From: an uncultured bacterium
GTDB lineage: Bacteria > Bacteroidota > Bacteroidia > Chitinophagales > CAIODY01
DNA length: 40,250 bases
NCBI GenBank assembly: GCA_903857255.1
Contig: CAIODY010000008.1
Coordinates: 1-40,250, forward strand
Direction: 5' to 3'
The notes under the pieces are model-generated. The model saw nothing but the letters and a program-made list of their open reading frames with translations, made no database searches and was not told the origin of the DNA. A program made the position numbers and the translations under genes. Each line of letters opens with the position of its first letter. The first letter of the stretch is position 1. Shown here piece by piece: positions 36,403 through 40,250 of this stretch.

Positions 36403-37269
36403 TTATCTATTTCGGAAATTAAAAATTACTGTGCCTGATTCTTCTTCGGCATCTTGCTTAGGGCTAAACTTTATATCTCTTGCCGCTTTCAAGGCTAATC
36501 CCTTTAAATACGAACTAGAAGTAGTAGAGCCTTTTTCAGAATAATTTGCACTTATCACATTCCCATTTTCATCCACTGAAATACTAATGGCTACTTTTCC
36601 TTCTTCTTTTGAATTATCGCTGATGGTTGGAATATGCCTTCTTACTCTTTTGCTAATTTTTCCTTTAAAACTTGGACCACTTCCTGCATCGCCCAACCCA
36701 GTATTTTCACCAGAATAAACTTTTCCATTCGGGTCGCCATCAGGAACACCTTTATCACCAACGCCTTGTCCGTTGCCTTCACTTTTACTATTATTACTTC
36801 GATTTAGCAATCCCCTTAATTTATTTCTTGTTTCTTCTGCTTTAACTTTATTAGCCGCCATTTCCTTTGCAATCCTATCTGCTTCTACTTTTTCAGGGTC
36901 AGGTTTTGGATTATCAATTGGTTTTTTCTTAATCGGTTTTGTTGTTGGATTTGATTTTTTTGGTGTTTCAACTGATGCTGCATCTTCATGGTCTTGCGTA
37001 TTCACAGCATCAGGCAATTGCGTTGCTGATGAAGCAGTTGCATGAGCGTTGGATTGTTCTGTTTTTTCTGCATCGCTTAATGGTTGCACATCTCCGCTAC
37101 CATCAGGACTATCACCTAAATTTACTAACATACCCATTTCTTCTTCGGGCTTACCAATTTTTCCAATTGAATAAGGAATAAAATACAACAACAAAAACAA
37201 CAACACTGCAATGCCAGCAGTAATTGCAGCCGATTGATAACGATATTTTATTTCTGGTTGAATGGTCAT
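36403..37269 (-). CDS. TonB family energy-transducing protein
   Basis: A 288-residue inner-membrane-anchored protein with TonB layout. A short cytoplasmic start is followed by one membrane segment (about 14-33), a long flexible linker rich in Asp, Ser, Pro and Lys (PTTKPIKKKPIDNPKPDPEK), and a C-terminal domain from about 200 (EGKVAISISVDENGNVISA, then ARDIKFSPKQDAEE) like the TonB C-terminus. It would carry proton-motive energy from the ExbB-ExbD complex, encoded just upstream, to outer-membrane receptors; TolA-like use is an alternative. I chose the ATG at 37269; the in-frame start at 37290 adds seven residues. The 35-base gap to exbD fits an operon. Confidence 0.8.
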   Translation of the reverse strand: MTIQPEIKYRYQSAAITAGIAVLLFLLLYFIPYSIGKIGKPEEEMGMLVNLGDSPDGSGDVQPLSDAEKTEQSNAHATASSATQLPDAVNTQDHEDAASVETPKKSNPTTKPIKKKPIDNPKPDPEKVEADRIAKEMAANKVKAEETRNKLRGLLNRSNNSKSEGNGQGVGDKGVPDGDPNGKVYSGENTGLGDAGSGPSFKGKISKRVRRHIPTISDNSKEEGKVAISISVDENGNVISANYSEKGSTTSSSYLKGLALKAARDIKFSPKQDAEEESGTVIFNFRNR

Positions 37270-37304
37270 GTTTTGTGAGATGCTATACAATCAAAATTCC
37301 ACAA

Positions 37305-37706
37305 TTATTTATCCAAAGGTTTTGTAGCCAACACCACTTTTACTTTTAAATTTTTGGCGATGTTCATCACTTTCACCACCTCTTCAATCGGAACAGTTTT
37401 ATCCGCATTGATAACAATAGCTGGGTCAGTTTGATTGCCTAAATAAGATTTCACCGCATCTTCCAAACCCTCGTATGGCGTAAGTTTGGTGGCAACATAA
37501 AAATTCTTTTGAGCATCAATACTTACCACAACAGTTTGTTTGGCTGAAGTATTCGTATCAGCTTTTGGTAATGTTAATTTGATAACATTCGGATTGGCAA
37601 GTGTGGCAGCCAACAGAAAAAAGAACAACAAAAAGAAAAGTATATCCGCCATGGAATGCGTATAAATTTCTGCTTCGTTGTGTTGATGTCTGCGTCTTAA
37701 TTTCAT
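37305..37706 (-). CDS. exbD: ExbD/TolR family proton-channel subunit
   Basis: A 133-residue protein with a cytoplasmic basic start (MKLRRRHQHNEAE), a single membrane segment (about 20-41) and a periplasmic domain. Asp21 in SMADILFFLLFFFLL sits where the proton-carrying Asp of ExbD/TolR lies. The periplasmic part has VVVSIDAQKNFYV and IVINADKTVPIEEVVKVM, both family-like. The ATG at 37706 is preferred; the longer in-frame start at 37739 would use codons derived from an intergenic repeat. It sits between exbB and the tonB-like gene. The 134-base gap to exbB is unusually long for this operon and holds a repeat-like sequence. Confidence 0.87.
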   Translation of the reverse strand: MKLRRRHQHNEAEIYTHSMADILFFLLFFFLLAATLANPNVIKLTLPKADTNTSAKQTVVVSIDAQKNFYVATKLTPYEGLEDAVKSYLGNQTDPAIVINADKTVPIEEVVKVMNIAKNLKVKVVLATKPLDK

Positions 37707-37723
37707 TTTAGTATTTTTTATTT

Positions 37724-37840: not shown

Positions 37841-38542
37841 TTATTTTTCTGTTGGCTCTTGTAATAAATCTAAAAAATCAGCAGTTGCACTTTCAATTTT
37901 GTTGACGATTCTATCAATCATTCCATTCAACGAGTTATAGCAAATGAAAGCGAAAATCCCAACAATCAAGCCCGAAGCCGATGTTACCATTTTAATATTA
38001 ATACCGCTTGCGATTACGCCGATACTCAAATTGTTATCAGCAGCAATGTCTTCAAACAATTTCATCATCCCTGCAATCGTTCCTAAGAATCCAAACATGG
38101 GCGCAATACCAGCAATGATTTTAAGGATATTTAAAAAACGTTCGAGTTTGTAAATTTCTAATTCAGCTACATTTTCCATGCTGCGTTCAATTTCTTTAAT
38201 TGGTTTTCCAATTCGTGAAACACCTTTTTCAATCACTCTTGCAATGGGTGAAGTGCTGCCTTTGCAATAAGATTTTGCAGCGGCAATATTACCATTGCTA
38301 ATGTGGTCTTTCACAGCAGCCATAAAATTATCTTCAATTTTATTGGCTTTAGTAATGATTAATAGTCGCTCCACGAAAAAATAAATGGTGCCGAAAAACA
38401 ACAACGCAATTGGAATCATTAGCCAACCACCTTTTAAAATTAAATCGAATAAACTGGTGTGTGGCACTTCGGCTGCAGCTTTGGCAGCAGCTTGCACGAT
38501 GGGTTTGGTAGAATCTACAATTTGCAAAATGATATGGAGCAT
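37841..38542 (-). CDS. exbB: MotA/TolQ/ExbB proton-channel family protein
   Basis: A 233-residue inner-membrane protein with three membrane segments: about 37-58 (GGWLMIPIALLFFGTIYFFVE), about 125-147 (IIAGIAPMFGFLGTIAGMM) and about 168-190. The cytoplasmic loop between the first two carries RVIEKGVSRIGKPIKEIERSMEN, and GFLGTIAGMMKLFEDIA is the family signature. It forms the pentameric channel with ExbD inside, energising the TonB-type protein encoded downstream. An Ala/Lys-rich periplasmic stretch (about 12-25) precedes the first helix, which is a little unusual. It is the first gene of the exbB-exbD-tonB set. I found no good -7 element near the ATG at 38542. Confidence 0.88.
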   Translation of the reverse strand: MLHIILQIVDSTKPIVQAAAKAAAEVPHTSLFDLILKGGWLMIPIALLFFGTIYFFVERLLIITKANKIEDNFMAAVKDHISNGNIAAAKSYCKGSTSPIARVIEKGVSRIGKPIKEIERSMENVAELEIYKLERFLNILKIIAGIAPMFGFLGTIAGMMKLFEDIAADNNLSIGVIASGINIKMVTSASGLIVGIFAFICYNSLNGMIDRIVNKIESATADFLDLLQEPTEK

Positions 38543-38643
38543 TTCTTTTGAATTTGGTTAAAGTGTGATTGCCTAAAATTACAAGTGTTGAAATGCTTCG
38601 ATAGAGAAAGTGTTTTGTTTTTATAAACTGAATGAAAGGAGAC

Positions 38644-38672
38644 TGTACAAATCAATGTACAAGCCTTGTACG
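38644..38672. promoter_or_regulatory. operator-like array of three TGTACAA half-sites
   Basis: TGTACAA occurs at 38644-38650 and again at 38656-38662, 12 bases apart. An inverted copy (TTGTACG, 38666-38672) completes a 15-base palindrome GTACAAG-C-CTTGTAC at 38657-38671. It lies 102 bases upstream of exbB and 134 bases upstream of gldF, in a region with no genes. This looks like a binding site for a dimeric regulator, with an extra half-site. The regulator is not known. Confidence 0.45.
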
Positions 38673-38766: not shown

Positions 38767-38774
38767 TATCTTTG
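38767..38774 (+). promoter_or_regulatory. -7 element upstream of gldF
   Basis: TATCTTTG fits TAnnTTTG exactly and ends 31 bases before the gldF ATG. The -33 region is weak (ATTTAC near 38741). The two repeat clusters at 38644-38672 and 38698-38732 lie just upstream, where a regulator would act. Confidence 0.45.
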
Positions 38775-38805: not shown

Positions 38806-39537
38806 ATGTTTCCAATTTATCGAAAAGAGATTACTTTATTTTTCAGTTCACTCATTGGTTATATTTCGATGGGTGTTTTTTTAATTGGCTTGAGCCTTTT
38901 TGTATGGCTGATTCCCGACAGCAATCTTTTACAAATGGGCTATGCCAATTTGAATCCGTTGTTCGATTATGCGCCTATGATTTTATTGTTTTTGATTCCT
39001 GCCATCACCATGCGTTCGATTGCCGAAGAAAATAAAAATGGCACCATTGAATTATTAACTACTCGTCCATTAACCGATTGGCAAATCATTTGGGGAAAAT
39101 ATTTAGCGGCTGTAACACTTTATGCAGTGAGCCTTTTGCCCACCTTAATTTATTATTATAGCATTTACAAATTAGCCAACCCAGTTGGAAATATCGATAA
39201 TGGCGCATTGATTGGCTCTTACTTCGGGTTGTTTATGTTGGGTGCAACTTTTACAGCCATTGGAATCTTTGCATCATCCATCACATCCAACCAAGTAGTT
39301 GCTTTCATAGCCGCTGTGAGTATGTGTTTCATCATGTATATGTGTTTCGATTACATCAGTAAAATGCCAGGCATATTCGGTCAGTTTGATTTTTATGTGC
39401 AGCAGATTGGCATCAACGAACATTACAATGCGGTGAGTTATGGCGTGATTGATACTCGTGATGTGATTTATTTTATTTCAGTAATCGGAATATTTTTATT
39501 TGGAACAAAAACAGTTTTACAAGCAAGAAAATGGTAA
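38806..39537 (+). CDS. gldF: gliding-motility ABC transporter permease GldF
   Basis: The membrane subunit of the GldA-GldF-GldG ABC-2 type transporter linked to gliding motility in Flavobacterium and widely kept in Bacteroidota. The 243 residues have six membrane segments. Characteristic parts are MFPIYRKEITLFFSSLIGY at the start, PAITMRSIAEENKNGTIELL (the ABC-2 coupling loop) and LLTTRPLTDWQIIWGKYLA. The ending LFGTKTVLQARKW is also typical. Its stop codon overlaps the start of the next gene by 7 bases, which implies translational coupling. gldG normally follows gldF, but here a TlpA-like gene does. The upstream region contains an operator-like array and an inverted repeat. Confidence 0.9.
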   Translation: MFPIYRKEITLFFSSLIGYISMGVFLIGLSLFVWLIPDSNLLQMGYANLNPLFDYAPMILLFLIPAITMRSIAEENKNGTIELLTTRPLTDWQIIWGKYLAAVTLYAVSLLPTLIYYYSIYKLANPVGNIDNGALIGSYFGLFMLGATFTAIGIFASSITSNQVVAFIAAVSMCFIMYMCFDYISKMPGIFGQFDFYVQQIGINEHYNAVSYGVIDTRDVIYFISVIGIFLFGTKTVLQARKW

Positions 39538-40250
39538 AGATTTTTCTATTTACATTAGCTTTCTTATGTGGTATTACTGCATTTTCAAAAAGTGAAAAAA
39601 TAAAACTTCACAACAAAGTCAGTGAGTTTTCTCATGATACTTTATTGGTAGGCAGTTTTTTAAATACCAATAGAACATATTCGGTATCCATCTTCTCTAA
39701 TTTGTGGAGTGCAATTTCGTTTTTTAGAAATTCTAAGGATACAATTTTTATGATTGGGATAATTGATAGCGTAAAGAATCAACGAATAATTTTACACAGA
39801 AACAAAGGAACACTTTTCACCTTGTACGGCAATTCTTTTCGCCTTATTGATTTGGATATAGAAAATAGAATTTTAGAAATAGAACAGATTGGGAAGAAAA
39901 TAAAAACCAACCATTTTGACTTAACAGATAGTTTTCCTAATCTATCCCAAACACTTCAAATTGAAGGAGATTTCAAAGAAGTTTTAGGCGATATTAAATC
40001 AAAAAAATACGACCACTATTATCTTAATTTCTGGGCAACTTATTGTGTTCCATGTATCAAACATTTTAGTGAACTTCCAAAATTTGCTTCCTACAATACA
40101 AAGGTGATTAATGTATGCGCTGGCGTTTCCGATACCCTTGCAAGAAGAATTATTACAACAAAAAAACCAGTCGGGTTTAATTTTTATTGTGAAGAAGAAT
40201 TTGTTCATGATTTGAATTTTGAAGGTGGATTTCCTTCTGGAGCCTTATAC
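39531..40250 (+). CDS. TlpA-like thioredoxin-fold protein (3' end outside window)
   Basis: An open frame of 240 codons that runs off the window end, so the protein is partial. It begins with ATG inside the last codons of gldF (ATGGTAA overlap). The N-terminus MVKIFLFTLAFLCGITAFS is a signal peptide with cleavage near AFS. Residues about 25-150 are a beta-rich region of unknown type. The thioredoxin-like domain then starts, with YLNFWATYCVPCIKHFSELP: the redox pair is Cys172 and Cys175 and the Trp is 168. The arrangement is that of periplasmic TlpA/ResA-like disulfide reductases. The target is unknown. The link to gldF is by position only. Confidence 0.75.
   Translation, partial: MVKIFLFTLAFLCGITAFSKSEKIKLHNKVSEFSHDTLLVGSFLNTNRTYSVSIFSNLWSAISFFRNSKDTIFMIGIIDSVKNQRIILHRNKGTLFTLYGNSFRLIDLDIENRILEIEQIGKKIKTNHFDLTDSFPNLSQTLQIEGDFKEVLGDIKSKKYDHYYLNFWATYCVPCIKHFSELPKFASYNTKVINVCAGVSDTLARRIITTKKPVGFNFYCEEEFVHDLNFEGGFPSGALY

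Follow-up and report, generated by a model that had tools for sequence, protein, structure and literature searches.

A conserved inverted repeat upstream of exbB, a predicted activator site of the TonB energiser genes in some Chitinophagales

Bacteroidota rely on the energy delivered by TonB to take up many of their nutrients. Searches limited to open-licence papers brought up no operator described for an exbB promoter in Bacteroidota. Class I sites of the CRP/FNR family are upstream dyads located at helix-phased distances from the promoter, a property that the inverted repeat described here would share, although the sequence of the half-sites differs. For MlrA of Escherichia coli, the reported target is AAAATTGTACA(12N)TGTACAATTTT, which lies ahead of csgD and outside the -35/-10 elements (Ogasawara 2010, quoted in PMC9662190). 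The half-site of that target, TTGTACA/TGTACAA, and its location outside the -35/-10 elements are also those of the exbB dyad, whereas the spacer is of 12 bp instead of 6, the AAAA/TTTT flanks are absent from the dyad, the regulated gene is csgD and the phylum is another one. The TnrA box, TGTNANAWWWTNTNACA, resembles the dyad in its TGT...AWWW...ACA arrangement, in its similar length and in its recognition by a protein whose binding domain is MerR-like, but it measures 17 bp from TGT to ACA, against 18 in the dyad, and belongs to a Bacillus nitrogen regulon of dozens of promoters (excerpts of PMC4475385). MlrA and TnrA both carry MerR-like DNA-binding domains. The structure of MliR superposes on that of TnrA with 1.14 Å over 49 Cα atoms, and deletion of mliR in a marine flavobacterium lowers the expression of metal-uptake genes and of a TonB energy transducer (excerpts of PMC9478572). 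The main sigma factor of flavobacteria has its TAnnTTTG box, here called the -7 box, at -12 to -5 (excerpts of PMC9723704).

The window analysed here, a stretch of 40,250 nucleotides, is one whole contig of a 2.97 Mb genome that is distributed over 134 contigs. Within the named genome collection the closest match to its exbB, 97% identical, is found in the Chitinophagales MAG CANFST010000011.1, followed by an unclassified bin with 90% identity, and the order is accordingly taken to be Chitinophagales. On either side of the intergenic region that contains the inverted repeat, exbB, exbD and tonB point to the left and gldF points to the right (Table 1). The exbB product scores below the cut-offs of the NCBIfam TolQ and ExbB models, and the match of the tonB-type gene to Pfam TonB_C also lies below its cut-off. 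The limits of exbD are those given by its ATG, while the profile searches took 37305-37709. The genes exbB, exbD and tonB would form one operon, and the exbB transcription start referred to below is a predicted one, set by a probable -7 box that lies 61 bp downstream of the dyad and 31 bp upstream of the ATG. A 19-base block sits between the dyad and this promoter. The gene downstream of gldF (39531-40250), thioredoxin-like by eye with a CVPC motif, runs past the end of the contig and is no evident gldG.

Table 1. Features of the exbB-gldF region, in coordinates of the window
Feature	Positions	Strand	Evidence or remark
tonB-type gene	36403..37290	-	TIGR01352 tonB_Cterm above cut-off
exbD/tolR-type gene	37305..37706	-	Pfam ExbD 6.2e-28
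exbB/tolQ-type proton channel gene, first in the putative operon	37841..38542	-	Pfam MotA_ExbB 5.9e-26
Probable exbB -7 box TAATTTTA	38574..38581	-	1 mismatch to TAnnTTTG
19-base block TCAGTTTATAAAAACAAAA (exbB strand; also given as TTTTGTTTTTATAAACTGA)	38613..38631	-	Identical in three genus genomes
Dyad TTGTACA-TTGATT-TGTACAG (exbB strand), putative exbB activator site	38643..38662	-	Kept in G001 and G002; spacing tests
TGTACAA copy 1	38644..38650	+	Its TGTACA is one dyad half-site
TGTACAA copy 2	38656..38662	+	Its TGTACA is the other dyad half-site
TTGTACG, third half-site	38666..38672	+	With copy 2 forms the 15-base palindrome 38657-38671
gldF -7 box TATCTTTG	38767..38774	+	Kept before gldF in G001 and G002
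gldF, divergent neighbour of exbB	38806..39537	+	TIGR03518 above cut-off

We propose that a transcription factor, acting as a dimer, probably binds at positions 38643-38662 and controls exbB-exbD-tonB as an upstream activator of a TAnnTTTG promoter; both the binding of a protein to the dyad and its activating effect are predictions drawn from comparing sequences. The earlier note on this DNA had read TGTACAA as a direct repeat, with starts 12 bases apart at 38644 and 38656, and had also pointed to a perfect 15-base palindrome, GTACAAG-C-CTTGTAC; the letters and coordinates of both are correct. Since TGTACA is its own reverse complement, the direct repeat is also an inverted repeat, TTGTAYA-N6-TRTACAA, and it was the pairing of the copies that had been misread. 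Copies 1 and 2 are kept as a dyad in both relatives of the same genus, reading TTGTATA-AACTTT-TATACAA on the exbB strand of G001, with no mismatch, and TTGTATG-CCTAAT-TGTACAA on that of G002, with one.

Recurrence of the consensus TTGTAYA-N6-TRTACAA was analysed in a set of 109 regions from the order, each covering the 250 bp upstream of exbB (29 of the 30 loci of one exbB set and 80 more; 191 genomes had an exbB match). Locus L027, with six bases upstream, was left out, and its genome was matched in the scan for dyad plus promoter described below; two further loci outside the 109, L061 and L062, have 3 and 5 mismatches at best. With a spacer of 6 bp, 3, 8 and 17 regions match with up to 0, 1 and 2 mismatches, respectively, while the best of the other spacers between 0 and 14 gives 0, 1 and 6. 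The 17 regions with up to two mismatches span 10 families (other spacers, 0-6), and 13 of them carry the dyad 92-118 bp upstream of the ATG, the remaining four at 50, 167, 170 and 172 bp. When the search is limited to 85-125 bp before the start codon, the spacer of 6 yields 13 of the 109 regions, distributed over 8 families, whereas no other spacer yields more than 0-2. Members of the same family are not independent and the counts by family are hence the safer figures. Once the home family is set aside, 14 of 104 regions (9 families) carry the dyad somewhere in their 250 bp, the mean for comparison being 2.2 (Poisson, ~1e-7), or, counted by family, 9 against 2.0 (~2e-4); between 85 and 125 bp the corresponding count is 10 (7 families) against 0-2 for the others. 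Beyond the three sites that defined the pattern, 14 sites read TGTAYA-N-AWWW-N-TRTACA, with an AWWW core that the pattern did not impose. When exact 5-base dyads were counted de novo, TTGTA-N10-TACAA, with 6 loci in 4 families, came out only just above the shuffle maxima of 5 and 4, and by families it was outranked by the AT-only TATTT-N9.

An inverted repeat with fixed spacing, as characterizes the operator of a transcription factor, is found at orthologous exbB promoters in a minority of the order. No dyad with up to two mismatches is present in 92 of the 109 regions, including nearly all of those of families f8, f12, f17, f18 and f20, nor in any of 68 exbB upstream regions of other orders, taken from the 84 matching genomes outside the order and counting L241, a mis-set locus at a contig end. 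At three mismatches, 10 of the 68 match, within the 4-13 given by other spacers. We read the dyad as an order-specific feature of a minority of the order's exbB regions.

The distance from the dyad to a TAnnTTTG-type box clusters at 49-52 and 60-61 bp, two classes that are separated by about one turn of the helix and were named after the data had been seen. At up to two mismatches in the dyad and one in the box, 13 loci of 8 families have distances of 49-52 or 60-62 bp, and six control spacers give 0-2; when the dyad is relaxed to three mismatches, the loci in phase are 18, against up to 7 for the control spacers. Exact -7 boxes support the 49-52 bp class alone (6 loci), whereas the 60-61 bp class, to which the home genome belongs with TAATTTTA, depends on one-mismatch boxes; locus L017 fits both. 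The dyad centres would be placed at -71.5 to -74.5, or at -82.5 to -83.5. In the proposed mechanism, each subunit of the dimer would contact one TTGTAYA half, and the dimer would sit ~72-75 or 83 bp before the transcription start, on one face of the helix, from where it might help RNA polymerase at the TAnnTTTG promoter in the manner of class I activators. A missing -33 element was also considered as a sign of activator dependence and turned out to be uninformative, the counts being 0 of 9 with the dyad and 7 of 37 without it, with a background of 17%. For a flavobacterium, a member of another order, high expression of the TonB-ExbBD genes is reported across all samples, a finding that does not suggest a switch in that organism (excerpts of PMC9723704). 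The conserved site and its preferred spacing from the -7 box provide a direct handle for finding the regulator of exbB.

The dyad had been regarded as placed to control the TonB energising operon, gldF or both; the comparison of relatives favours the exbB operon and speaks against gldF. On the other side of the intergenic region, exbB faces gldF in the home genome, a MerR-type gene in G001 and, by eye, another membrane-type gene in G002; despite these different neighbours the dyad lies 100-102 bp upstream of the exbB ATG in all three genomes of the genus. In four relatives (G001-G004) gldF is located elsewhere, not beside exbB, and the 300 bp upstream of it contain no dyad with up to two mismatches in any of the four (best 3, 5, 4 and 4), and gldF was rejected as the target. 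That no regulator gene adjoins the site holds true for the home genome, where the divergent gene is gldF. In two genomes of family f19, G023 (L195) and G036 (L198), the divergent gene beyond the dyad is the second ExbB paralogue, so that a single dyad is flanked by energiser genes on both sides.

As to the protein that would bind the dyad, a class I activator of the CRP/FNR family is a possible candidate that we hold with little confidence. Such a protein would fit the positions as well as one of the MliR type, since the predicted dyad centres lie near the positions typical of class I activators, and GTAYA-N6-TRTAC shares the 5-N6-5 geometry of TGTGA-N6-TCACA. Against it, the conserved GT/AC bases of the dyad are one base further out than those of CRP or NtcA sites.

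Doubtful to a similar degree is the reading that the dyad is bound by an MliR-type regulator of the MerR superfamily, short and MlrA-like, which would activate exbB from upstream. The half-site identical to that of E. coli MlrA (quoted in PMC9662190), the closeness of TGTAYA-N-AWWW-N-TRTACA to the TnrA box (excerpts of PMC4475385), and the MliR-TnrA superposition together with the lowered TonB energy transducer upon mliR deletion (excerpts of PMC9478572) all point in this direction. In G001 (L048), the nearest relative, a 110-aa MerR-type MliR-like gene and exbB, at 1069-1401 on the minus strand and 1621-2322 on the plus strand, are divergent and share the dyad-bearing intergenic region; the home genome encodes an MliR-like protein with 95% identity; and in G054 (L178) an MliR-like gene is preceded by a two-mismatch dyad 60 bp before TATATTTG, and autoregulation is possible in that one genome. 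On the other hand, the protein is as common without the site, a strong MliR-type match being found in 27 of 30 genomes, the home genome among them, and an MliR-like protein in 29 of the 32 genomes of a set that mostly lacks the site, while G036 has a dyad (two mismatches) and a weak MerR match alone. The recognition helix shows, by eye, no difference between dyad-positive and dyad-negative groups, in a comparison where the dyad-positive label included weak sites and three loci had no readable window. Upstream of the MliR-like genes, 22 of 24 regions (of 26 loci, with start codons roughly set) have no dyad with up to two mismatches. Moreover, the spacer is of 6 bp and not the 12 of MlrA, which gives 0 of 109 regions at up to two mismatches, and the description of MliR concerns a marine flavobacterium, with no dyad present within two mismatches in the 68 exbB regions of other orders. 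If the dyad were bound by an MliR-type protein, it would be the first operator for MliR, for which the excerpted text of PMC9478572 gives affected genes and no DNA site.

Taken at its widest, the order-specific activator site would serve almost solely the TonB energiser operon, would be bound far upstream by a minimal MliR-type member of the MerR superfamily, and would act as one switch for the whole energy supply of the outer membrane rather than as part of an iron regulon; this combined picture is speculative and we regard it as improbable.

The remaining explanations dispense with an activator. Iron-uptake genes often have dyads that serve as repressor sites, and by that precedent the exbB dyad might be a repressor operator; this is unlikely, taking into account that ~50-61 bp separate the end of the dyad from the -7 box downstream, which places it outside the core promoter where a simple repressor would sit. 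Very unlikely is an RNA hairpin, attenuator or terminator, in the exbB leader. The strand does fold better than its shuffles, with z values of -3.5 in the home genome and -5.1 in G001, but the dyad lies upstream of the predicted promoter, there is no terminator-like site and no Rfam match, and there is no covariation: among 16 sites (L020 being omitted as identical to L019) pair 6-15 gives 6 Watson-Crick, 5 wobble and 5 unpaired combinations. That the dyad is a product of chance in AT-rich DNA has an equally small probability. Single genomes do hold 3-17 dyads with up to one mismatch, and reversed controls 0-9, but chance would hardly produce the specificity of the spacer, the recurrence before exbB across families and the absence from the 68 regions of other orders.

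The set of TGTACAA copies had been called unlikely by chance; this stands for the 20-bp dyad, which is kept and recurs at exbB, and fails for the 15-base palindrome, which is near background and lost in relatives. Among perfect palindromes whose arms measure 7 bases and whose centre measures 0-3, 22 are listed for the window, a few of them overlapping, and 5 of the 22 have a one-base centre, as does that at 38657-38671. The genome-wide search with up to two mismatches that the earlier note had suggested gives 15 sites (1 exact, 2 with one mismatch, 12 with two) against 9 for the reversed control pattern. Although perfect in the home genome and slightly above its control, the palindrome as the operator of a trans-acting regulon, perhaps including gldF, is the least probable reading and is largely refuted: when the exbB upstream regions are aligned, the palindrome and the third half-site are absent from G001 and G002, both one-mismatch sites fall within ORFs, and gldF is located elsewhere in relatives, without the dyad. 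A separate pattern, TTGTACANTGTACAA, was wrongly built; its 6 matches, 4.3 being expected, do not include the dyad and say nothing about it.

The suggestion of a trans-acting regulon found no counterpart among the copies of the dyad with up to one mismatch, whose sole intergenic representative is that of exbB in G000 (the home genome), G001 and G002; these genomes hold 5, 3 and 5 such sites and the reversed control gives 0, 9 and 2. A regulon of weaker dyad sites, beyond one mismatch, is possible. In five genomes (G050, G054, G023, G036 and G014) there are 45 sites at up to one mismatch, 15 of them placed in context, against 28 in the reversed control, and the genome counts are not above the control everywhere, G014 having 3 sites against 5. 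A scan of the exact dyad and -7 pattern across the class matched 0 of 395 genomes, and it is too strict, as it misses any site with one mismatch. When 396 genomes of the order were scanned, blind to position, for the dyad followed at 49-64 bp by TAnnTTTG, there were 15 matches, 7 of them beside exbB, and the 8 others compare with 6 in the reversed control. Four of the seven come from one genus, and the box of G054 faces the divergent gene; since five of the seven exbB genomes were already among the 109 (the exceptions being G048 and G060), the scan is mainly a check of specificity. In G001, G050 and G054, which belong to three families, the only perfect dyad match of the genome is the one at exbB. 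G023 has a one-mismatch dyad at exbB and two perfect dyads away from it, one intragenic and one intergenic. In locus L156 of G023, at 1501-1520, a perfect TTGTATA-N6-TATACAA lies between a gene that by eye resembles the ATP synthase gamma subunit and a 301-aa ORF.
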